From Symbiobacterium thermophilum IAM 14863 (GTDB lineage: Bacteria; Bacillota; Sulfobacillia; Symbiobacteriales; Symbiobacteriaceae), in the NCBI RefSeq assembly GCF_000009905.1, contig NC_006177.1, positions 1,178,001-1,242,000 of the forward strand: a stretch of DNA of 64,000 bases, read 5' to 3'. Shown one piece after another: positions 2,819 through 56,087 of this stretch. The notes beneath the pieces were generated by a model. The model saw nothing but the letters and a program-made list of their open reading frames with translations. It searched no databases and was not told the origin of the DNA. The position numbers and the translations under genes are program-made. Numbering within the stretch: the stretch's first letter is position 1; the number at the start of each line of letters is the position of its first letter.

Positions 2819-4348
2819 CTACCGCCGCACCACCCGGAAGGCGTCGGCGATCACGTAGCCCGTCCCGCTGGTCCAGCGGCTCACGGCGATGATCTCCCGG
2901 TCGCCGGCCAGCAGCCGGAACGTGCCCAGGTGCACCCACCTGCCGCCGTTTTGTCGCTGGTTGACGTACACCGTCACCGGCGTGGTGCCCGTGCCCGCGC
3001 TGTTGGCCTGCCAGATCACCACCGGGGTCCTGTCGTTGTAGCCGCTGTTGGCCGGGTACCACATGTAGATGTCGTAGTTGCCGGTGGACGGGATGTTGAA
3101 CTTGTAGTAGGCCGCGTCGCTGACCGCCTTCGGCTCGGCGAAGCGGTAGTTGCTGCCGTACCGCTGGCTCGACCAGGAGGAGGTGCCCCAGTTGCTGCTG
3201 GCCCGGAACCGGCCGCTGGTGGTGTTGTCCACAATGGCCGACCACGAGCCCGAGGACTGGGTGACCAGGCTCATGTAGTAGTTCCAGTCCCAGCAGCTGC
3301 CCGGGTCGGTGTGGGTGGCCCCCGGCACCTCGTTGTGGCCGATGATGTAGCTACGGGTCATGGGGATGCCGTACTTCTGGGCGATGTTGCGGGTGAGCGC
3401 CGCGCTGGCCCGGTACATGGCGTCGGTGAACCAGGTGCAGCTGGACACCCAGCCTTCGTGTTCGATGCCGATGGACTGGGTGTTGTAGGTCCAGTTGCCG
3501 GCGTGCCAGGCGATGTCCTTCTCCCGCACCATCTGGGTGATGGCGCCGTCGCTGGAGCGGATGACGTAGTGGGCGCTCACGTTGGAACTGGGGTTCTGGA
3601 ACCAGCTGATGGTCCCGGAATAGGAGCCCTGGGTCACGTGGATGACGATGTACCGGATGGGGTAGCTGCTGGGCCGGTTGGAGGCGGTGTAGTTGGAGGA
3701 GTGGGCGGGCACCCAGGCGGCGGGGCCGTAGTCCTGGGACTGGACGGTGATCAGGCCGGCGAACCGGCCCAGGTCGGGCGTGACCGCCTGCGGCTCGATG
3801 CGGATCTCCTCGCCGTCGACCACGGCGTCGATGCCCCGGTTCAGAAACTCGTAGACCTGCAGCGCGTAGTCCCTGGCGGCCACCCCTTCGAGCTGGCTGT
3901 ACCGGGCCACCGCCTCAAACCAGTCGCCCAGCTTCAGGGATTTGACGTCCGCCCCCTGCTCCGCGGCGTAGTGGGCCAGCAGCGCCGCACCGCCCAGGAT
4001 GTTGGCCGCGGTGTCGGTCCTGAGCCGGGCCGGGTCGAGCCCCGTGAGCTTGGCGGCCAGGTCCAGCGTCGTCACCTGGGGATTGGAGACCAGGTGCATC
4101 ACGCCGTACCCCCCGGCGACGCTGGGCACGCCGTCGTGGTCGTCCAGCCGGGTCTCGGCGTAGGCCAGGGCCACCAGCAGCTCCACCGGCACGCCGTAGG
4201 CGTCGGCAGCCTTCCGGAAGGCCTGCCCCATGGGGCCGTCCAGCCGGTGGCCCCGCTCGAACTCCTCAGGGGCCGCCCATCCGGTCCCCACCACGGTCAA
4301 CAGGAACAGCAGGAGCACGAAGAAGCTCAGCCCTCGACCCTTGCGCAT
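2819..4348 (-). CDS. Exported three-domain N-acetylmuramoyl-L-alanine amidase
   Basis: A 509-residue secreted peptidoglycan hydrolase. Residues 1-26 form a signal peptide ending near GWAAPEE. Residues about 35-150 look like a lysozyme-type (SLT-like) fold with the pattern ELLVALAYAETRLD. Residues about 210-365 are an Amidase_2/PGRP domain with likely zinc ligands in YIVIHVTQG and THTDPGSCW, which would cleave the MurNAc-L-Ala bond. The last 135 residues resemble the golvesin C-terminal/Xly carbohydrate-binding domain. Combining a transglycosylase-like domain with an amidase is unusual; the first may be non-catalytic. It is transcribed convergently to gatD. Confidence 0.88.
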   Translation of the reverse strand: MRKGRGLSFFVLLLFLLTVVGTGWAAPEEFERGHRLDGPMGQAFRKAADAYGVPVELLVALAYAETRLDDHDGVPSVAGGYGVMHLVSNPQVTTLDLAAKLTGLDPARLRTDTAANILGGAALLAHYAAEQGADVKSLKLGDWFEAVARYSQLEGVAARDYALQVYEFLNRGIDAVVDGEEIRIEPQAVTPDLGRFAGLITVQSQDYGPAAWVPAHSSNYTASNRPSSYPIRYIVIHVTQGSYSGTISWFQNPSSNVSAHYVIRSSDGAITQMVREKDIAWHAGNWTYNTQSIGIEHEGWVSSCTWFTDAMYRASAALTRNIAQKYGIPMTRSYIIGHNEVPGATHTDPGSCWDWNYYMSLVTQSSGSWSAIVDNTTSGRFRASSNWGTSSWSSQRYGSNYRFAEPKAVSDAAYYKFNIPSTGNYDIYMWYPANSGYNDRTPVVIWQANSAGTGTTPVTVYVNQRQNGGRWVHLGTFRLLAGDREIIAVSRWTSGTGYVIADAFRVVRR

Positions 4349-4544
4349 GGTGAACCTCCCCTTCCATCGTATGATGGTAGGGACTTTTTACACAAATAAG
4401 TCAGAACAATCAATACTCTGACAGGAAAATTGTCGATATCGGTCGAGTGGCGAAGGCAAGAATGTCCATACCTGAAGGACTGGCGGGCGGGCGGGGCGAA
4501 CAAGAAGGGGAGTCCGCAGCAGTCCGCAGGAAGGGAGGGTTTCC

Positions 4545-5216
4545 ATGCGCCGGAGGCTGCGTCTTCTCGCGCCCCTCCTGGCCATCCTGCTCCTCACCGC
4601 CGCGGGCTGCGGCGAGCCTGAGGCGCAGGGCCCGGCCGCGGGCGGCGACCAGACCGACGTCCAGAGTGAACCGCCGGCCGAGGGGGAAGGGCAGCAGGAT
4701 GGGCAGCAGATCCCGCTGACGCTGGTGTACAGCCACCCCGATACCGGCCTGACCCTGGGCGTGCCCGAAGGGTGGGTCGTCTACCCGCTGGAAGACGCGG
4801 TGGTGGCGCTCATCAGCCCGGAGCGGGGGGAGGAGGACTTCTTCCGGGAGAACATCCTCGTCACCGCCGACGGCCAGTTCCCCGACCCCGCGCTGGACGT
4901 GTACGTCGAGGCCCTGGAGCAAGAGGTGCGCCACCGGTACCCCGACACGGAGACGCTGGAGAGCGGCGAGGCCACCGTGGGCGGCGTCCCGGCCCGGTGG
5001 ATCGTCGACCGCTTCACGGGTGAGAAGGGCGAGACCCGGGTCTACCGAGTCGTCCTGGTGCGGGACGGGATCGCCTACGTCCTGCACGGCACTGCGCCGG
5101 TATGGACGTTTGACGACTACCGGCCGGTGTTTGAGGCCGTCGCGCAGTCCATCACCTGGGTGGAGCCGCGCGCGGTCGAGCCCGAGCCGGAGGCCCCCTC
5201 CGAGACCGGCCCGTAG
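4545..5216 (+). CDS. Lipoprotein with a PsbP/DcrB-like domain
   Basis: A 223-residue protein with an N-terminal signal and lipobox (LLTAAGC), so probably anchored outside the membrane. A charged, low-complexity linker (residues about 25-55) is followed by a domain of about 145 residues. Its pattern (GLTLGVPEGWVV near the start, FEAVAQSITW at the end) matches the PsbP/DcrB/Mog1-like fold found in many small bacterial lipoproteins. A strong AAGGGAGGG ribosome site precedes the ATG. The GNAT gene follows closely, so the two may be co-transcribed. The exact function is unknown. Confidence 0.75.
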   Translation: MRRRLRLLAPLLAILLLTAAGCGEPEAQGPAAGGDQTDVQSEPPAEGEGQQDGQQIPLTLVYSHPDTGLTLGVPEGWVVYPLEDAVVALISPERGEEDFFRENILVTADGQFPDPALDVYVEALEQEVRHRYPDTETLESGEATVGGVPARWIVDRFTGEKGETRVYRVVLVRDGIAYVLHGTAPVWTFDDYRPVFEAVAQSITWVEPRAVEPEPEAPSETGP

Positions 5217-5232
5217 CCCAGGGAGGATGGAG

Positions 5233-5667
5233 ATGGAGGAGTCACTGGTGATCCGACCGGCCACCGCGGCCGATGCCCCGGCGGTGGCCGCCTTGCTGAC
5301 CGACTTCAACGGGGAGCCGACGGACGCCGCAGCTTCCGCCCGCCGCATGGCGGCCATGGAGGGGACGGAGACGGTGCTGCTCGCGCTGCGGGGCGGCGCC
5401 GCCGTCGGCCTCTGCAGCTTGCGGGTCGTGCCGTTCCTGTCGGCCGACCACCCGTACGCCGAGGTGACCGAGCTGTACGTGGCGCCGCAGCACCGGCGGC
5501 AGGGCATCGCCCGCCGGCTGATGGCGGAGGCTGAAGCCCTGGCCCGCGCCAAGGGCGCGCCCGCGGTCTACCTCCTCACCGGGTTCCGGAACGAGACCGC
5601 CCAGGCCTTCTACCGCAGCATCGGCTACGGCGACTACGCCCTGGCCATGCGGCGCAGGCTGGTATAG
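5233..5667 (+). CDS. GNAT family N-acetyltransferase
   Basis: A single-domain GNAT acetyltransferase of about 144 residues that transfers an acetyl group from acetyl-CoA to an unknown amine. The acetyl-CoA binding motif is clear (ELYVAPQHRRQGIARRLM), and the C-terminal pattern NETAQAFYRSIGY is typical. The start is uncertain. An ATG at 5227 abuts the GGGAGG site. The ATG at 5233 has ideal spacing and is chosen here. A GTG at 5248 would also begin right at the conserved VIRPAT. The substrate cannot be read from the sequence. Confidence 0.85.
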   Translation: MEESLVIRPATAADAPAVAALLTDFNGEPTDAAASARRMAAMEGTETVLLALRGGAAVGLCSLRVVPFLSADHPYAEVTELYVAPQHRRQGIARRLMAEAEALARAKGAPAVYLLTGFRNETAQAFYRSIGYGDYALAMRRRLV

Positions 5668-46571: not shown

Positions 46572-49250
46572 ATGCGCGTTTCGTACAACTGGCTGAAGGA
46601 TTACGTGAAGGTGGGCCTCTCTCCGCAGGAGCTGGCGGAGCGGCTGACCGCCCGGGGCGTGGTGGTGGAGAACGTCGTCAGGGCCAACCCCGGGGTGGAG
46701 GGGGTGGTGGTCGGCCGGGTGGTGGCGATGGAGCGCCATCCCAACGCGGACACCCTCTGGGTCTGCCAGGTGGACGTGGGCGGGGGCCGGGTGCTCCAGA
46801 TCCTGACCGGCGCCCAGAACGTCACCGTCGGGGCGCTGGTGCCTGCGGCCGTCCCCGGCGCGAAGCTTCCCGGCGGCGTGACGATGGGCGTCAAGAAGCT
46901 GCGGGGTCTGGACTCCCACGGCATGCTCTGTTCGGAGGCGGAGCTGCAGGTGGGCGATGACGCGGACGGCATCCTGATCCTGCCGCCGGAGCCGGGGCTG
47001 GAGCCGGGCATGGACGTGGCCGAGGTGCTGGGCTTAAACGACTGGATCTTCGAGCTGGACCTCACCGCCAACTACGCCGCCCACTGCCAGTCGATGCTGG
47101 GCGTGGCGCAGGAGGTGGCCGCACTGGTGGGCGGCGAGGTGAACCGGCCTTCGACGTACACCCCCGACGCGCCCGGAACCGACGTGCGTAACCTGATCGC
47201 TGTGCAGATCGACGCCCCGGACCTCTGCAGCCGCTACGTCGCCAGGGTGGTGCGCGGGGTGAAGATTGGGCCTTCGCCGCTCTGGCTCCAGGCGCGGCTC
47301 CGGGCGGCGGGCATGCGGCCCATCAACAACATCGTCGACATCGCCAACTTCGTGATGCTGGAGACCGGCCAGCCGCTGCACACCTTCGACTACGCGCAGA
47401 TCCGCGGGCAGAGGATCATCGTCCGCCGCGCCCGCACCGGTGAGCGGTTCACCACGCTGGACGGCCAGGAGCGGGTCATGGACGAAAGCGTCCTGGTGAT
47501 CGCCGACGCCGAGCGGCCGGTGGCCCTGGCCGGCGTCATGGGTGGCGAGGACTCCGAGGTGACCGACCAGACGGCGGACATCCTCATCGAGTCGGCCCAC
47601 TTCGACAACATCAACAACCGGCGCACGTCCCTGCGCTACAACCTGCCGAGCGAGGCCTCCAAGCGGTTCACCAAGGGGGTCGACCCGTCGGGGTGCGTCG
47701 CGGCCGCCGACCGCGCGGCCCAGCTCATGGCCGAGCTGGCCGGAGGCACGGTGGTGGCCGGCCACGTGGACGTCTGTCCCCGCCCGGCCGTCCCGCCGGT
47801 GATCCTGCTGCGCACGGAGCGGGCCAACGCCCTCACGGGCCTGAAGCTCACGCCGGAGCGGATGGCGGAGCACCTGCGCAGCCTGGGCATGGCCGTGCTG
47901 ACGCCCGCCGATCTGGCGGCGGACCTGGCCCTGGGCGCGCCGGAGTCCGACGAGGAGCCGGGGGAGGACCTGGGCGGCCACCCGGTCTGGACGGCCCTGC
48001 ACCAGGTTTCGCCCGTGCCGTCTGACCCGGTGGTGTACCGCACGTGGGCGGAGGCCGCCTGGGCGGAGGTGGAGGACGCGGGCAGCCGGCTGGAAGCGCT
48101 GCTGGGCGGAGGGGAAAGCGACGGCAAGGCCGCAGCGTCCGGCGAAGGCGTGTCGCCCGGTGGCGCCTCCGACGGCATCCTGGTGGTTGTGGTGCCCACC
48201 CGGCGCAGCGACGTCGCCGTCGAGGTGGACCTGATCGAGGAGATCGCCCGGTGCGAGGGGTACGACGCGATCCCGCTGGAGCTGCCGGTGCTCTCCTCCC
48301 ACCGGGGCGGGCGAAGCCGCCAGGGCGAGGTAAAGCTGGCGGCCCGGCGCGCCCTGGCCGCCGCGGGCCTCACCGAGGTGCTCACGCACTCGCTGACCCA
48401 CCCGCGGGTCTACGATATGCTCGCCCTGCCGGAGGACGACCCGAACCGGCGCTGCCTTGCGCTGGCGAACCCGATGTACGAGGACCGGTCCACGCTGCGC
48501 ACCATGCTGCTGCCGTGCCTGCTGGACGTGGTGCGGTACAACGCCAACCGGCAGGTGCGGGACCTGGCCATCTTCGAGATCAGCCACGTCTACCGGCCGG
48601 TGGAAGGCGAGCAACTCCCCGACGAGCCGCTGATGATCGGCCTGGCCATGACCGGCAACCTGGCCCCGCTGGGCTGGAACAGCCCCGAGCGGCCCGCCGA
48701 CTTCTTCGCCCTGAAGGGCGTGGTCGAGCACCTGCTCGCGGAGCTGGGCGTGCCGGATGCGCGTTTCGAGCGCAGCGCGCACCCGTCGCTCCACCCGGGC
48801 CGGCAGGCGGCGCTGGTGGTCGGCGGCAAGCCCGTCGGCCTGCTGGGCGAGCTGCACCCGCAGGTGCAGGAGCGGTGGGAGCTGCCCGGTCGCGTCTACG
48901 TCGCCGAACTCGCCTTCGCTCCGCTGATGGAGGCTATGCTGCCCCAGGCGGTGTACCGCCCGGTTCCCCGCTTCCCCGCTGTCACTCGGGACGTGGCCGT
49001 GGTGGTCGACCTCGACCTTACCGCCCACCGGCTGGAGACGGCGATCCGGGAGGCCGGCGGCGACCTGCTGGAGGAGGTCCGGCTGTTCGACGTGTACCAG
49101 GGCGAGCGGGTGGCGGAGGGCAGGCGGTCGCTGGCCTACCGGCTGGTGTACCGCGCCGCCGACCGCACCCTGACGGACGAGGAGCTGGAGCCGGTGCACA
49201 ACCGGGTCCGGGAGGCGCTGAAGGCGCTGGGCGCCGAGCTGCGGAGCTGA
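46572..49250 (+). CDS. pheT: Phenylalanyl-tRNA synthetase beta subunit, with an extra segment
   Basis: The 892-residue beta subunit, about 90 residues longer than typical bacterial PheT. Domains in order: N-terminal tRNA-binding OB fold (residues about 40-150), B3/B4 editing region, B5, core, and C-terminal anticodon-binding FDX-ACB domain (last 95). The extra length lies at about residues 440-533 inside B5. There the sequence is acidic and low in complexity, ending in a Gly/Ser/Ala stretch before VVVPTRRSDV. It is in frame and codon use is unchanged, so I regard it as a lineage-specific insertion rather than an error. Confidence 0.95.
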   Translation: MRVSYNWLKDYVKVGLSPQELAERLTARGVVVENVVRANPGVEGVVVGRVVAMERHPNADTLWVCQVDVGGGRVLQILTGAQNVTVGALVPAAVPGAKLPGGVTMGVKKLRGLDSHGMLCSEAELQVGDDADGILILPPEPGLEPGMDVAEVLGLNDWIFELDLTANYAAHCQSMLGVAQEVAALVGGEVNRPSTYTPDAPGTDVRNLIAVQIDAPDLCSRYVARVVRGVKIGPSPLWLQARLRAAGMRPINNIVDIANFVMLETGQPLHTFDYAQIRGQRIIVRRARTGERFTTLDGQERVMDESVLVIADAERPVALAGVMGGEDSEVTDQTADILIESAHFDNINNRRTSLRYNLPSEASKRFTKGVDPSGCVAAADRAAQLMAELAGGTVVAGHVDVCPRPAVPPVILLRTERANALTGLKLTPERMAEHLRSLGMAVLTPADLAADLALGAPESDEEPGEDLGGHPVWTALHQVSPVPSDPVVYRTWAEAAWAEVEDAGSRLEALLGGGESDGKAAASGEGVSPGGASDGILVVVVPTRRSDVAVEVDLIEEIARCEGYDAIPLELPVLSSHRGGRSRQGEVKLAARRALAAAGLTEVLTHSLTHPRVYDMLALPEDDPNRRCLALANPMYEDRSTLRTMLLPCLLDVVRYNANRQVRDLAIFEISHVYRPVEGEQLPDEPLMIGLAMTGNLAPLGWNSPERPADFFALKGVVEHLLAELGVPDARFERSAHPSLHPGRQAALVVGGKPVGLLGELHPQVQERWELPGRVYVAELAFAPLMEAMLPQAVYRPVPRFPAVTRDVAVVVDLDLTAHRLETAIREAGGDLLEEVRLFDVYQGERVAEGRRSLAYRLVYRAADRTLTDEELEPVHNRVREALKALGAELRS

Positions 49251-49549: not shown

Positions 49550-51136
49550 TTGCAGACGCGCGGACGAGCGATCCGACTGGTGGCGGCTGCGATGGCCGCG
49601 GGCCTGCTGGTGACGGCCGGCTGCTCGTCGGGGCAGAGGAGCGATCCCGGCGAGACCCAGCAGACCCAGGGCCGGCGGCTGTCCATCACCATCGACACGT
49701 TCCAGGGCCGCATTCCCGAGGCGGAGGCCGTCGCCAACTACCTGCGCCAGGTCGGCGTGCAGGCGGAGGTGCGCATCTGGGAGAAGAACGCCCTGCTGGC
49801 CGAGATCCAGCAGGGGACCCGCATGGCCTACACCCAGGACTGGGGCAGCTCCACCTTCGACCCCTACGACCTGGCCGTGCCCAAGCTGAAGACCGGCGAC
49901 CGGGGCAACTACTCGTTCTACTCCAACCCCGAGGTGGACCGCCTCCTGGATGAGGGGGCGTCCGGTACGGATCCTGAGGCCCGGCGCAGGGCCTACGAGC
50001 AGGCGCAGCAGATCCTGATCGAGGACGCGCCGTGGATCTTCGGCTACTACATGGACGTGGTCGAGGCGACCACCGCCGACGTGGTGGGCTTCGTCCCGGC
50101 GATGGACAGCCGCATCAACCTCCACGACGTGAGCCGCACCGGCGCGGACTCGCTGGTGGTCGGCATGCGCACCGACCGGCTCCAGTCGCTGGACCCGGCG
50201 AACCACCGGGACCGGGATACCGAGACGGTCATCCGCAACATCTACGACGGCCTGGTGACCCGCACACCCCACGGCGAAGTCGTCCCTGAGCTGGCGGAGT
50301 CCTGGGAGCAGCCGGACCCGACGACCTACATCTTCAAGCTGAAGCAGGGCGTCAAGTTCCACGACGGCTCCGAGATGACGGCGGACGACGTCGTCTTCAC
50401 CTTCGAGCGCATCATGGCGCCCGACGGCATCGACGGCCAGCAGTCGCCGCGCCTTGGGCTCCTCGGCCCCCTGAAGTCCGTGGAGAAGCTGGGCGATTAC
50501 GAAGTCAAGTTCACCCTGGAGTACCCGTTCCCCACCTGGCTCCAGCTGCTGCCGCACACCCAGATCGTGTCCAAGGCCCACGTGGAGCGGATGGGCTCCT
50601 CCCAGGCCCTGTCCGCGAACCCGATGGGCACCGGGCCCTTCAAGTTCGTGCGGGGCCAGGTGGACTCCGAGATCGTGCTGGAGCGGTTCGACGATTACTA
50701 CGGCGGCTCGGATGCCCTGACGCCCGTCGGGCCCGCACCTTTGAAGACCGTCACTTTCCGCATGATCCCGGAGCCCTCGACCCGGGTGGCGGCCCTGAAG
50801 GCCGGGGAGGTCCACATCATCCAGGAGGTGCCCATCGACCAGATCCCGCTCCTGGAATCCGATCCCAATGTGCGGGTGCACACCACCCAGGGTACGCGCC
50901 TGTACATGATCGAGCTGAACAACAACCTGATCCCCGATGCCCGGGTGCGCCGAGCCCTGAACCACGCCATCGACTGGGACACGATCCTGCGGGAGATCTA
51001 CGGCGGTCGGGCGCACCGGGTGGCCACCGCCATGCTGCCCAGCGGCTTCGGCTACGACCCGACGGTGGAGCCGCTGAAGTACGATCCGGAACTCGCCAAG
51101 CAGCTGCTGCAGGAGGCCGGCTACGCGACGGACTAG
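49550..51136 (+). CDS. Peptide ABC transporter binding lipoprotein, apparently circularly permuted
   Basis: A 528-residue SBP_bac_5 (cluster C) binding protein with lipobox VTAGC (C25), for capturing peptides outside the membrane. The order of its parts is unusual. Residues about 42-195 match the normal C-terminal third of the family (YLRQVGVQAEVRIWEKNALL, NYSFYSNPEVDRLLDEG, QQILIEDAPWIFGYY). From about residue 199 the normal N-terminal two thirds follow (LQSLDPANHRDRDTETVIRN, VVPELAESWEQ, ALNHAIDW). The protein stops at AKQLLQEAGYATD, exactly where the C-terminal third should begin. The TTG start at 49550 follows AAGGAGGAGG. It heads an operon with two permeases and two ATPases. Confidence 0.88.
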   Translation: MQTRGRAIRLVAAAMAAGLLVTAGCSSGQRSDPGETQQTQGRRLSITIDTFQGRIPEAEAVANYLRQVGVQAEVRIWEKNALLAEIQQGTRMAYTQDWGSSTFDPYDLAVPKLKTGDRGNYSFYSNPEVDRLLDEGASGTDPEARRRAYEQAQQILIEDAPWIFGYYMDVVEATTADVVGFVPAMDSRINLHDVSRTGADSLVVGMRTDRLQSLDPANHRDRDTETVIRNIYDGLVTRTPHGEVVPELAESWEQPDPTTYIFKLKQGVKFHDGSEMTADDVVFTFERIMAPDGIDGQQSPRLGLLGPLKSVEKLGDYEVKFTLEYPFPTWLQLLPHTQIVSKAHVERMGSSQALSANPMGTGPFKFVRGQVDSEIVLERFDDYYGGSDALTPVGPAPLKTVTFRMIPEPSTRVAALKAGEVHIIQEVPIDQIPLLESDPNVRVHTTQGTRLYMIELNNNLIPDARVRRALNHAIDWDTILREIYGGRAHRVATAMLPSGFGYDPTVEPLKYDPELAKQLLQEAGYATD

Positions 51137-51157: not shown

Positions 51158-52168
51158 GTGAAGGCGGTTCGGATACTGGAGCGGGTGCTGACTGCCCTGC
51201 CGATGTCGATCCTGATGTTGCTGCTCGTCTTTGCCTTCGTGCGCCTCCTGCCCGGCGACCCGGTCGACATCATGATGGGGCAGGCCGGCAACGTCTCCCA
51301 GGCCGAGATCGACGCGCTCCGCCGCGAGCTTCATCTGGACCGGCCGCTGGCGGAGCAGCTCTCCATCTTCGTGCGGGGGCTGCTCCGCGGCGACCTGGGA
51401 TACTCCTTCCGGGAGCAGCGGCCCGTGGCCGCGATCATCGGGGAGGCCTTCCCCGCGACCGTCGAGCTGGCCCTGGCCGGGCTGACCTTTGCCCTGCTGG
51501 TCGGCCTGCCCATCGGGGTCGTCTCGGCGGTGAAGCGGAACTCCTGGTTCGACCGGCTCGCCATGGGCTTCTCGTTCCTGGGGATCTCGATGCCGGCCTT
51601 CTGGCTGGGCATCATGGCGATGATGCTCTTCTCGGTGCACCTGGGCTGGACGCCGGTGCAGGGCAGGCTCTCCGCGGGCCTCGTGCCGCCGGATCTCACC
51701 GGGTTCTACGTGCTCGACGCGCTGCTCGCCCGGGACTGGGCGCTGCTGAAGGACGCCCTGCGCCACCTGGTCCTGCCCGCGGTGACCCTGGGTGCGGAAC
51801 TGACGGCGATCATCGCCCGGGTCACCCGCTCGTCCATGCTGGAGGCGCTGCATATGGACTACGTCACGGCCGCCCGGTCCCGGGGGGTGCCCGAGTGGCA
51901 GGTGGTGCTGCGCCACGCGCTGCGCAACGCCCTGATCCCGACGGTGACGGTGACGGGGCTGCAGCTCGGGGTGCTGCTGGGCGGCAACATGATCGTCGAG
52001 ACGGTCTTCGGCTGGCCGGGGTTGGGCCGGCTGGTGGTCGGGGCCATCTTCGCCCGCGACTACGCGCTCGTGCAGGGGGCGGTCATGCTCTACGCGCTGA
52101 CGTTCCTCCTGGCCAACCTGCTCGTGGACATCCTCTACACGCAGCTAAACCCGAAGCTGGAACTCTAG
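51158..52168 (+). CDS. Peptide ABC transporter permease (DppB/OppB type)
   Basis: A 336-residue inner-membrane permease with six predicted helices and the BPD_transp_1 coupling motif (EALHMDYVTAARSRGVPEWQV, ending near the conserved Gly). It starts with GTG behind GAGGAGG. With the next gene it forms the channel through which the ATPases drive peptide uptake. Confidence 0.93.
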   Translation: MKAVRILERVLTALPMSILMLLLVFAFVRLLPGDPVDIMMGQAGNVSQAEIDALRRELHLDRPLAEQLSIFVRGLLRGDLGYSFREQRPVAAIIGEAFPATVELALAGLTFALLVGLPIGVVSAVKRNSWFDRLAMGFSFLGISMPAFWLGIMAMMLFSVHLGWTPVQGRLSAGLVPPDLTGFYVLDALLARDWALLKDALRHLVLPAVTLGAELTAIIARVTRSSMLEALHMDYVTAARSRGVPEWQVVLRHALRNALIPTVTVTGLQLGVLLGGNMIVETVFGWPGLGRLVVGAIFARDYALVQGAVMLYALTFLLANLLVDILYTQLNPKLEL

Positions 52169-52180
52169 AGGAGGTGGAAG

Positions 52181-53026
52181 ATGGCTTTCTGGCGCCGCCT
52201 GTTCGCCAACCCCAGCGCGGCGGTGGGGCTGGTCGTCATCCTGCTCTACGCCCTCGCCGCCCTCCTGGCGCCCGTGATCGCGCCGTACGGGCCGCGGGAG
52301 ATGGATCTGGCCAACCGGCTCCGGCCCCCGGCCTTCCTGGAAGGCGGGAGCCTGAACCACCCTCTCGGCACCGACCAGCTGGGGTACGACCTCTTTTCCC
52401 GCATTCTCTACGGCGCCCGTGTCTCGCTGCTGGTGGGGCTGATCTCCGTCGCGATCTCCCTGGTGGTGGGCACCTTGCTGGGGTGCATCGCCGGGTACTG
52501 GCGGGGCTGGGTGGACCGGATCCTCTCCCGGCTGGCCGACCTGCTCATGGGGTTCCCCTATCTGCTGTTCACCATCTTCGCCATGGCCATCATCGGCCCG
52601 GGATTCGGGAACCTCATCCTGGCGCTCTGCTTCAAGGCCTGGGTCGAGTTCTTCCGCCTGGCCCGGGGCGAGATGCTGACCGAGAACACCAAGGAGTACG
52701 TCGAGGCAGCCCGGGCTCTGGGCCGGCGCCCGGCCGCGATCATCTTCAGCGAGGTGCTGCCCAACATCTACCACTCGCTGCTGGTGCTGGCGACGCTGCG
52801 CATGGGCTACATGATCATCATGGAGGCGTCGCTTTCGTTCCTGGGGCTGGGCATCCCGCCTTCGATCCCGGCGTGGGGATCCATGGTGAGCGCAGGCCGC
52901 GACCAGATGCTGAACGCCTGGTGGGTCGCGACCATGCCCGGCCTGGCCATCGTGGGGCTGGTGCTGGCCATCAACCTGCTGGGCGAGGGGCTGCGGGACG
53001 TGCTGGATCCCCGGCTGCAGCGGTAA
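52181..53026 (+). CDS. Peptide ABC transporter permease (DppC/OppC type)
   Basis: A 281-residue permease with the DppC-type N-terminus (helix at residues 12-35 followed by DLANRLRPPAF and HPLGTDQLGYDLFSRI) and the coupling motif EYVEAARALGRRPAAIIF. It is 12 bp after the DppB-like gene, with GAGGAGG before its ATG. Confidence 0.93.
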   Translation: MAFWRRLFANPSAAVGLVVILLYALAALLAPVIAPYGPREMDLANRLRPPAFLEGGSLNHPLGTDQLGYDLFSRILYGARVSLLVGLISVAISLVVGTLLGCIAGYWRGWVDRILSRLADLLMGFPYLLFTIFAMAIIGPGFGNLILALCFKAWVEFFRLARGEMLTENTKEYVEAARALGRRPAAIIFSEVLPNIYHSLLVLATLRMGYMIIMEASLSFLGLGIPPSIPAWGSMVSAGRDQMLNAWWVATMPGLAIVGLVLAINLLGEGLRDVLDPRLQR

Positions 53027-53039
53027 GGGAGGGAGCGGT

Positions 53040-54023
53040 GTGGAGAAGCTGCTGGTCATCGAGAACCTGTCCGTGGAGTTTCCCTCGCCCCGCGGGCCGC
53101 TGCGCGCGGTGGACGGCGTGACCCTGGAGGTGGAGGCGGGCGAGATCGTCGGGCTGATCGGCGAATCCGGGTCCGGCAAATCCACGGTCCTGCTGGCGGT
53201 GATGGGCCTGATCGCCCGGCCGGGCCGCATCCTGCCCGGCTCGTCCGTGCGGCTGAAGGGGCGGGAGCTCACGCGGCTCACCCCGAAGGAGTATCGGGCC
53301 GTGCGCGGTTACGAGATCGGCATGGTCTTCCAGGATCCCATGACCGCGCTCAACCCCGCGCTGCCCATCGGCGAGCAGGTCCGGGAGAGCCTGCGGGTGC
53401 ACCGGTACTGCCGGTCGCGGGCCGAGGAGCACGCCCGGGTGATCGAGTTGCTGGAGGCGGTGGGGATCGTGGGCGCGGCCCAGCGGTACCGGTCGTATCC
53501 GCACCAGTTCAGCGGCGGGATGCTGCAGCGGGTGCTCATCGCCTCCGCCCTCGCCTGCAATCCCCGGCTGCTGCTGGCCGACGAGCCCACCACCGCCCTC
53601 GACGTGACGATCCAGGCGCAGATCCTGGACCTCCTGAAGAAGATCAACCGGGAGCGGCACACCGCCATCCTGCTGGTGAGCCACGACATCGGGCTGGCCG
53701 CCGAGTTCTGCGACCGCATCGCCGTGATGTACGCCGGGCGCATCGTCGAGGTGGGGCCGGCGGAGCAGGTGGTGAACGCCCCGCGCCACCCCTATACCCG
53801 GGGCCTGGTGGGCTGCCTGCCCAGCTGGGGCGGCCGGCGGGGCCGGCTGGAGCCGATCCCGGGTTCGCTGCCGGACCTGACGCAGCTGCCCCGGGGGTGC
53901 GCCTTCGCGGACCGGTGCGCCTTCGCCCTGCCGCAGTGCCGGGAGGAGGAGATCCCCCTGCGGGCGATGCCCGACGGCCGCCGGGTCAGCTGCATCCGCG
54001 CCGAGGAGGCGATGGTGGGATGA
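53040..54023 (+). CDS. Peptide ABC transporter ATPase (DppD/OppD type)
   Basis: A 327-residue ATPase with Walker A GESGSGKST, signature FSGGMLQRV, Walker B LLLADEPTTALD and the oligopeptide-transporter C-terminal region with conserved cysteines (GCAFADRCAFALPQC) that hold an iron-sulfur cluster in some relatives. It starts with GTG behind GGAGGGAG. Confidence 0.93.
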   Translation: MEKLLVIENLSVEFPSPRGPLRAVDGVTLEVEAGEIVGLIGESGSGKSTVLLAVMGLIARPGRILPGSSVRLKGRELTRLTPKEYRAVRGYEIGMVFQDPMTALNPALPIGEQVRESLRVHRYCRSRAEEHARVIELLEAVGIVGAAQRYRSYPHQFSGGMLQRVLIASALACNPRLLLADEPTTALDVTIQAQILDLLKKINRERHTAILLVSHDIGLAAEFCDRIAVMYAGRIVEVGPAEQVVNAPRHPYTRGLVGCLPSWGGRRGRLEPIPGSLPDLTQLPRGCAFADRCAFALPQCREEEIPLRAMPDGRRVSCIRAEEAMVG

Positions 54024-55006
54024 GCGCCGCACCCCTCCTGGAGGTCCGGGATCTGTACAAGCATTTCGTGCTGCCCCGCAGCCTCCTCAGCCGGGCGCTG
54101 ACCGGCCAGGGACACCGGGTGGTCCAGGCCGTGAACGGCGTCTCGTTCGCGCTGCAGCAGGGGGAGACGCTGGGGCTGGTGGGCGAGAGCGGCTCCGGCA
54201 AGTCCACGCTGGGCCGGACGATCCTGCGGCTGTACGAGCCCACCCGCGGGGAGGTGCGCTTCGACGGCCAGGACGTGTTCCGGCTGGACGCGGCCGGCCT
54301 GCGCCGCTTCCGCCAGCAGGCCCAGATCGTGTTCCAGAACCCCTACGCTTCGCTGAACCCCCGCAAGACGGTGCGGCAGATCCTCGCCGTGCCGCTCGCG
54401 CTGCGGGGCCTGTCCAGGCGGGAGCGGCAGGAGGAGGCCGCCGCGCTCATGGAACGGGTGGGGCTCTCTCCGCAGCACCTGGACCGCTATCCCCATCAGT
54501 TCAGCGGCGGACAGCGGCAGCGCATCGGCATCGCCCGGGCCCTGGCGATGCACCCCCGGCTCATCGTCGCGGACGAGCCGGTCTCTGCCCTGGACGTGTC
54601 GGTGCAGGCCCAGATCATCAACCTGCTGGAGGACCTGCAGCAGGAGCTGGGGCTCACCTACCTGTTCATCTCCCACGATCTGAGCGTGGTCCGGCATCTC
54701 AGTACCCGGGTGGCGGTGATGTACCTGGGGCAGATCGTGGAACTGAGCCCCACCGAGCCGCTGTTTGAGGAGCCGCTGCACCCCTACACCCGCGCCCTGC
54801 TCTCGGCCGCGCCGGGTCAGGGCCGGCGGGAGCGGATCATCCTGCAGGGGGCGCCGCCCAGTCCGCTGGACCCGCCGCCGGGCTGCCCGTTCCACCCCCG
54901 CTGCCCGGCCGTCGTGGGCGACGTCTGCCGGACGGACCGGCCGGCCCCGGTGTTGCTGGGCGAGGGGCGGTGGGTGGCCTGCCACCTGTACGGCCCGCCG
55001 GCTTGA
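54020..55006 (+). CDS. Peptide ABC transporter ATPase (DppF/OppF type)
   Basis: A 328-residue ATPase with Walker A GESGSGKST, signature FSGGQRQRIGIA, Walker B and the C-terminal cysteine segment (GCPFHPRCPAV). It overlaps the DppD-like gene by 4 bp (ATGA) and ends the transporter operon. Confidence 0.93.
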   Translation: MSAAPLLEVRDLYKHFVLPRSLLSRALTGQGHRVVQAVNGVSFALQQGETLGLVGESGSGKSTLGRTILRLYEPTRGEVRFDGQDVFRLDAAGLRRFRQQAQIVFQNPYASLNPRKTVRQILAVPLALRGLSRRERQEEAAALMERVGLSPQHLDRYPHQFSGGQRQRIGIARALAMHPRLIVADEPVSALDVSVQAQIINLLEDLQQELGLTYLFISHDLSVVRHLSTRVAVMYLGQIVELSPTEPLFEEPLHPYTRALLSAAPGQGRRERIILQGAPPSPLDPPPGCPFHPRCPAVVGDVCRTDRPAPVLLGEGRWVACHLYGPPA

Positions 55007-55153: not shown

Positions 55154-55227
55154 GCGGGTGTAGTTCAATGGTAGAACGTCAGCTTCCCAAGCTGAAGACG
55201 TGGGTTCGATTCCCATCACCCGCTCCA
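55154..55227 (+). tRNA. tRNA-Gly (anticodon CCC)
   Basis: A full cloverleaf of 74 nt with encoded CCA. The anticodon loop is TTCCCAA between TCAGC and GCTGA, so it reads GGG. T-arm GTTCGATTC is normal. Confidence 0.95.
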
Positions 55228-55230
55228 GAC

Positions 55231-55306
55231 GGACCGCTAGCTCAATTGGTAGAGCATCCGACTCTTAATCGGCAGGTTGTAGGTTCGAGTCCTACGCGGT
55301 CCACCA
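55231..55306 (+). tRNA. tRNA-Lys (anticodon CTT)
   Basis: 76 nt with encoded CCA. Anticodon loop CTCTTAA reads AAG. One T-C mismatch sits at the base of the anticodon stem; all other stems pair. Confidence 0.92.
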
Positions 55307-55310
55307 GGGG

Positions 55311-55339
55311 TTGCATAATACACGGTGTCTTGTTATAAT
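55311..55339 (+). promoter_or_regulatory. Internal promoter before tRNA-Asp
   Basis: TTGCAT (55311-55316), 17-bp spacer, perfect TATAAT (55334-55339), about 24 bp before tRNA-Asp. This suggests the last six tRNAs have their own transcription start. Confidence 0.75.
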
Positions 55340-55362
55340 ACGCTTCGTCCGCGACGGAAAAC

Positions 55363-55439
55363 GGAGGCGTAGTGTAGAGGCCTAACATGCGGCCCTGTCA
55401 CGGCCGAGATCGCGGGTTCGAATCCCGTCGCCTCCGCCA
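55363..55439 (+). tRNA. tRNA-Asp (anticodon GTC)
   Basis: 77 nt with encoded CCA; anticodon loop CTGTCAC; acceptor stem GGAGGCG paired with CGCCTCC. Confidence 0.95.
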
Positions 55440-55460
55440 TTCAACCTTCATCATTCACCT

Positions 55461-55536
55461 GGGGCTATAGCTCAGTTGGGAGAGCGCGTGAATCGCACTC
55501 ACGAGGTCAGGGGTTCGAATCCCCTTAGCTCCACCA
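55461..55536 (+). tRNA. tRNA-Ala (anticodon CGC)
   Basis: 76 nt with encoded CCA. Acceptor GGGGCTA pairs with TAGCTCC with one G-T pair. The loop ATCGCAC between CGTGA and TCACG gives anticodon CGC, reading GCG. Confidence 0.92.
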
Positions 55537-55571
55537 GAGTCCGGCCGTCTGAGACCGCGGCCGGACGGCAT

Positions 55572-55648
55572 GCGCCGGTAGCTCAGTTGGATAGAGTACC
55601 TGACTACGAATCAGGTGGTCGTAGGTTCGAATCCTGCCCGGCGCGCCA
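55572..55648 (+). tRNA. tRNA-Arg (anticodon ACG)
   Basis: 77 nt with encoded CCA. Anticodon loop CTACGAA; A34 is normally edited to inosine by TadA, allowing CGU/CGC/CGA decoding. Confidence 0.95.
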
Positions 55649-55654
55649 ACACCT

Positions 55655-55746
<92 letters not shown>

Positions 55747-55784
55747 GCCCGGGCCGGGAAACTCCCGGCCTGGGCGTGTAGAAT

Positions 55785-55861
55785 CGGGCTGTGGCGCAGC
55801 TTGGTAGCGCGCTTCCTTGGGGTGGAAGAGGTCGCAGGTTCAAATCCTGTCAGCCCGACCA
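55785..55861 (+). tRNA. tRNA-Pro (anticodon GGG)
   Basis: 77 nt with encoded CCA. Loop TTGGGGT between CTTCC and GGAAG reads CCC (and CCU). CCC is the specifier triplet proposed for the proC T-box in this window. Confidence 0.95.
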
Positions 55862-55969
55862 GATGGGCCGTGAGACGTGACCGGCGGATCCCGCCGCTCA
55901 CGTCTCACTGTCCGGGACGCACCGCTCATGGCCTCTCGCCGGGCACGACGCGTCGCTTACAGCATACTC

Positions 55970-56087
<118 letters not shown>

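Follow-up and report, generated by a model that had tools for sequence, protein, structure and literature searches.

The first gene of a Dpp/Opp-type ABC importer operon in the DNA analysed here (one stretch of 64,000 nucleotides, referred to as the window) encodes a solute-binding protein (SBP) of the SBP_bac_5 family (cluster C), in which the part normally found at the C-terminus comes first. Expression, ligand and structure data are lacking, but we hold with high confidence that this is a genuine, circularly permuted lipoprotein of such an importer. Judging from comparisons with other genomes, SBP_bac_5 has probably undergone at least three, and perhaps five or six, independent permutations at one loop, each time with the anchor moved to the opposite lobe and the operon kept, and this repeated convergence may have been driven by selection on tethering or by a recurrent mutational route. 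If true, this would be a case of repeated, convergent circular permutation in nature within a large binding-protein family.

Order of the parts and integrity of the gene

The gene (Table 1) starts with a TTG codon at 49550, with a Shine-Dalgarno-like stretch (AAGGAGGAGG) just upstream; the lipobox read from the sequence was VTAGC, and the C-terminal end of the protein was LLQEAGYATD. The match to SBP_bac_5 (PF00496) was significant (E = 2.8e-85; 287 bits against a cut-off of 32.4), while the canonical N-to-C order of the family segments was not observed: the profile matched in two swapped stretches, the best of which aligned residues 243-526 with positions 1-279 of 368. When PDB sequences were searched using phmmer, residues 211-526 and 48-182 corresponded to residues 54-360 and 369-506 of 5u4o, respectively, and the same swapped pair of matches was obtained with AppA (1xoc) and GbpA (3m8u), in which the first-placed C-part covered residues 355-494 and 367-475. 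All of the matches listed were cluster C SBPs for peptides, nickel, opines or sialic acid, and none was of the cluster B (MglB) type. These results confirmed the proposal of the first-pass annotation, made without database searches, that the segments are swapped with the C-terminal third (residues ~42-195) first; the domain search that it had recommended gave the two swapped stretches, and the old termini, whose junction it placed near residues 190-199, were joined as described (about residues 194-200).

Table 1. Features of the permuted SBP gene and its operon (positions in the window)
Feature	Position	Strand	Details and basis
Permuted SBP_bac_5 lipoprotein gene	49550-51136	+	528 aa, one frame (translation)
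Signal peptide and lipobox (...LLVTAGC)	49550..49627	+	Translation; low pLDDT, as expected
C-terminal third of SBP_bac_5, placed first	49673..50131	+	Residues ~42-194 (~DppA 344-505); phmmer, C-part HMM
Short linker from old C-terminus to old N-terminus	50132..50152	+	Residues ~195-201; HMM end points
N-terminal two thirds of SBP_bac_5	50147..51133	+	Residues ~200-528 (DppA ~1-342); phmmer, Pfam, VIA-align
DppB/OppB-type permease	51158..52168	+	Pfam BPD_transp_1 and BPD_transp_1_N
DppC/OppC-type permease	52181..53026	+	Pfam BPD_transp_1 and OppC_N
DppD/OppD-type ATPase	53040..54023	+	Pfam ABC_tran and oligo_HPY
DppF/OppF-type ATPase	53897..55006	+	Pfam ABC_tran and oligo_HPY; open frame, real start probably ~54017

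The features of a circular permutation were all present: the halves are single-copy and complementary (together amounting to a complete DppA-type protein), the old termini are connected (linker region of ~11 amino acids between the HMM ends of the two parts), and the new termini lie at one internal site. This site corresponds to residues ~341-343 of mature DppA and ~356-358 of OppA; under the standard domain division, the latter position falls within domain III. In an independently permuted protein (P0002), DppA residues 2-340 and 344-505 were matched, and hence nothing of the DppA chain is missing and the cut falls at 341-343. Within the window each part occurs in one copy only, and since the permease gene starts 22 bp after the SBP stop codon, no missing piece remains downstream. 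GC3 values of the two parts (0.949 and 0.937) equalled those of the neighbouring genes, and the normal order was seen in every nearby paralogue of this genome for which the order could be assigned.

Nothing except the oddity itself suggests that the swap arose in assembly or marks a rearranged, broken gene, and we regard this possibility as negligible. The window lies on a single complete contig, independent assemblies (from the same genus and from many families) have the same order, and the gene combines an open frame, low dN/dS, a complete operon and a single copy of each part; misassembly or a frameshift of the window gene was thus ruled out by an order common to independent genomes. Homologues with the same order, which the first-pass annotation had suggested looking for, were found in other Symbiobacterium genomes (91% and 85% identity). 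Among the Symbiobacterium orthologues, dN/dS was 0.09-0.17, and dN was considerably lower than dS in each half, indicating purifying selection on both. Evidence from the sequence, its conservation, the selection acting on it, the operon and the predicted fold therefore supports the earlier view that the gene is intact, probably functional and at the head of a complete permease/ATPase operon.

Distribution and origins of the permuted order

The permuted order was called by sorting open frames on the order of the N-part and C-part profile (HMM) hits. Fifty distinct permuted proteins were recognized among 193 proteins sorted, nearly all from other genomes and with the same order and cut. Full-length permuted matches were detected in 25 of 398 sampled genomes of the phylum, a minimum estimate, as scoring was limited to three candidates per genome; at the class level, a permuted match was found in about 31 of 154 genomes. 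The permuted proteins stop 0-8 residues past the LLxEAGY helix (19 in the single exception, L216), and in most members of the main clade the old termini are 11 residues apart. By these sequence comparisons, the permutation has arisen repeatedly and is spread widely across Bacillota, which goes beyond the single case claimed previously. No permuted protein was found at E <= 1e-100 in Chloroflexota (201 genomes) and Spirochaetota (149 genomes), a result that does not exclude weaker or differently cut cases. Apparent hits suggesting a very wide spread (Chloroflexota, Rhodobacteraceae and Fusobacteriota) were rejected as normal-order proteins whose tblastn pieces had been merged. One permuted gene (L020; G012:C44) contains an in-frame TAG, attributable to a pseudogene, a sequencing error or recoding.

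Phylogenetic trees were constructed after the parts had been restored to canonical order, and also from the N-part alone and the C-part alone. The window protein belonged to a main permuted clade, with the normal-order proteins L052 and L154 as its nearest relatives. A second permuted group (L025, L027, L029, L157, L161 and L156; referred to as group 2) was located far from this clade and adjoined normal-order proteins, both keeping the dipeptide-clamp motifs. Permuted L215 and L216 took yet other positions, and L023 branched immediately outside the main clade. A single origin of all the permuted proteins tested, as one clade, was rejected by the AU test (p = 0.0007), as were clades joining the main clade with L023 (p = 0.0019) or L215 (p = 1e-4) and group 2 with L215 (p = 6e-8). 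On the other hand, group 2 including L156 (p = 0.15), group 2 with L216 (p = 0.07) and L215 with L216 (p = 0.41) were not rejected. The p-values are somewhat optimistic because the groups were named after the first tree had been seen. These rejections and non-rejections, which rest on sequence data alone, give good support to at least three independent origins, while five or six are plausible.

A single ancient permutation, followed by reversals or horizontal transfer, would account for the identical cut point (the same LLxEAGY loop in every permuted group), for the three combinations that were not rejected, and for the position of the normal-order L052 and L154 in the C-part tree, adjacent to the main clade or weakly inside it. 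We consider it unlikely: besides the rejection of the all-permuted clade and of the combinations of L215 with the main clade or group 2, the N-part and C-part trees agreed on separate placements, and a return to normal order would require the same complex event backwards. The agreement of the part trees also bears on the possibility that parts of different SBP paralogues were fused by recombination without true permutation. A single genome contains many SBP paralogues, which are possible donors, and individual placements differed in detail between the two trees. However, for each permuted group both parts fell in the same broad neighbourhood of normal relatives, and both parts of the window protein were closest to the L049-L056/L052 subfamily; such chimeras are accordingly very improbable, and a true permutation within each lineage is indicated. 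L216 itself (3760-5502, + strand, in G032:C79) is a strongly diverged permuted SBP whose tail (~19 amino acids past the helix) and linker are both longer, and the same genome also encodes a group 2 permuted SBP (L156/L218).

As the route of independent permutation, duplication of the gene and in-frame joining of the copies may be inferred, after which the leading N-part and the trailing C-part would have been lost. Tandem duplication followed by loss of the outer parts had already been suggested in the first-pass annotation; this route is plausible and the likely one but has not been demonstrated, as no fused N-C-N-C protein was present among the loci examined. Two open frames of 918 and 1083 amino acids were discarded as candidate fusions: that in G495 consists of two separate adjacent SBP genes, and that in G523 is one normal gene. 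The G495 pair (L267; 1590-4826, - strand, in G495:C31) comprises two normal-order genes, 86% identical and 171 bp apart on the same strand; since they belong to the subfamily next to permuted group 2, such a pair is the kind of starting material that a duplication route would require. Fission was not supported by the N-part-only open frames (L151/L230, in G388), which run off the contig end. Whether the preference for one loop reflects tolerance of the loop, selection on the tether position or a recurrent mutational route is open.

Predicted fold and comparison with known SBPs

An AlphaFold2 model of the window protein, built on an alignment of permuted homologues and fragments of normal-order relatives, showed high confidence (pLDDT 92.8; pTM 0.88), with disorder only in the signal peptide and the lipid linker, and pLDDT values of 93-97 in the linker region (residues 181-210). 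Residues 198-528 were superposed by VIA-align on residues 3-323 of GsiB/YliB (1uqw), with a Z-score of 27.6 and 1.6 A over 316 amino acids; the alignment stopped after the N-part because the rest of the chain comes before it. In a control with ten permuted sequences only, confidence was lower (pLDDT 72.9; pTM 0.69), while the secondary structure was nearly the same and the N-part matched SBPs with Z ~22. The chain is thus predicted to close into a normal two-lobed SBP fold. The superposition of a model on DppA/OppA advocated in the first-pass annotation was achieved only in part: the model is confident and its N-part superposes (on 1uqw), but the structural aligners are sequential, and the two parts could not be superposed jointly on one chain. 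The C-part was identified by sequence, without a separate fold search.

DppA, GsiB, OppA and AppA are homologous to both parts (about 25-34% identity), cover the whole chain and belong to the same operon type; they differ from the window protein in their canonical order, with the lipid or periplasmic N-terminus at domain I. The nearest relatives, L052 (UBA3567), L154/L227 (G418) and L049-L055, share ~50-57% identity in the N-part and the same five-gene operon, but have the normal N-C order. One normal-order relative from Anaerolineaceae (L062; 4878-6743, + strand) has an apparent insertion of ~65 amino acids inside the C-part.

Tp0684 (TpMglB-2) from Treponema pallidum, a "Type Ic / Cluster Bc" SBP, is a known natural circular permutation, and its authors speculatively suggested a link of the permutation with membrane tethering (PMC4990184). 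Like the window protein, it is a permuted, lipid-anchored binding protein of an ABC importer in which the two-lobed fold is kept, and it also has homologues in Gram-positive bacteria. On the other hand, its fold is that of cluster B (glucose/galactose, MglB) rather than SBP_bac_5 (cluster C), the cut differs, the moved part barely resembles its canonical counterpart in sequence and makes a fourth hinge crossing, and repeated origins have not been reported, unlike for permuted SBP_bac_5. Tp0684 was the only other naturally permuted SBP found in the open-access literature searched, in which neither a permuted SBP_bac_5 nor repeated permutation at one site was reported (subscription papers and preprints were not covered); the permuted SBP_bac_5 and its recurrence are likely, but not certain, to be new. 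Natural circular permutations are usually described case by case, whereas here many permuted and unpermuted relatives share the same partner operon, so that the emergence of a permutation (including the existence of duplicated intermediates), the choice of one site and any effect of the anchor position on substrate delivery can be tested directly. A swapped order can go unnoticed in profile searches and automatic annotation, even in a binding-protein family that is among the largest in bacteria, and the cut is a natural, well-tolerated permutation site for biosensors based on peptide-binding proteins.

Lipid anchor, ligand residues and operon

In the inferred arrangement, domain I would contain the short, ordered linker that connects the old termini. 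The new termini would be situated in domain III, in the loop that follows the LLxEAGY helix, and the lipid anchor would thereby have moved from domain I to the lobe of domain III. The way in which the lobes capture the ligand and the protein docks on the permeases may be unchanged, although no binding or transport data are available. In DppABCDF from Escherichia coli, DppB inserts a scoop motif into the cleft that separates the two lobes (PMC12136057), and we infer that a tether on the other lobe changes the geometry of approach, while docking need not change. A functional Dpp/Opp-type importer subunit with its lipid anchor on the other lobe is the best reading, inferred and as yet untested.

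The ligand-clamping residues of DppA are R355 and D408 (R383 and D436 in precursor numbering; PMC12136057). By alignment, this Arg and Asp pair is absent from the window protein, in which the motifs RPYNP and GDNGDPDNF are replaced by QGRIPEAE and GSSTFDPYD; both residues are kept in P0002 and P0003 of permuted group 2. The absence might indicate that the protein folds but has no role in import, having been kept as an extracellular sensor, chaperone or enzyme. This seems improbable, since the importer operon is complete, its permeases are as close to those of the normal sisters as to those of other permuted proteins, and the normal-order relatives also lack the clamp residues by sequence. The loss would then reflect the ligand of the subfamily and not the permutation.

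The lipobox and the Pfam assignments of the neighbouring genes identified the SBP as the lipoprotein of a Dpp/Opp-type operon, and the gene order SBP-B-C-D-F was identical between main-clade permuted proteins and normal sisters. The window permease was 57-61% similar to the permeases of the normal sisters and 58-59% to those of permuted proteins outside the genus, and partners of permuted and normal-order SBPs were mixed in the permease tree. Neighbouring genes gave no ligand: GntR/UTRA regulators were found beside normal relatives and housekeeping genes elsewhere. Eight tRNA genes (Gly, Lys, Asp, Ala, Arg, Ser, Pro and Pro; 55154-56046, + strand) are located directly behind the transporter operon. 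PheT (phenylalanyl-tRNA synthetase beta; 46572-49250, + strand) contains an apparent insertion of ~100 amino acids inside the B5 domain, whose Pfam match was confined to profile positions 36-67.
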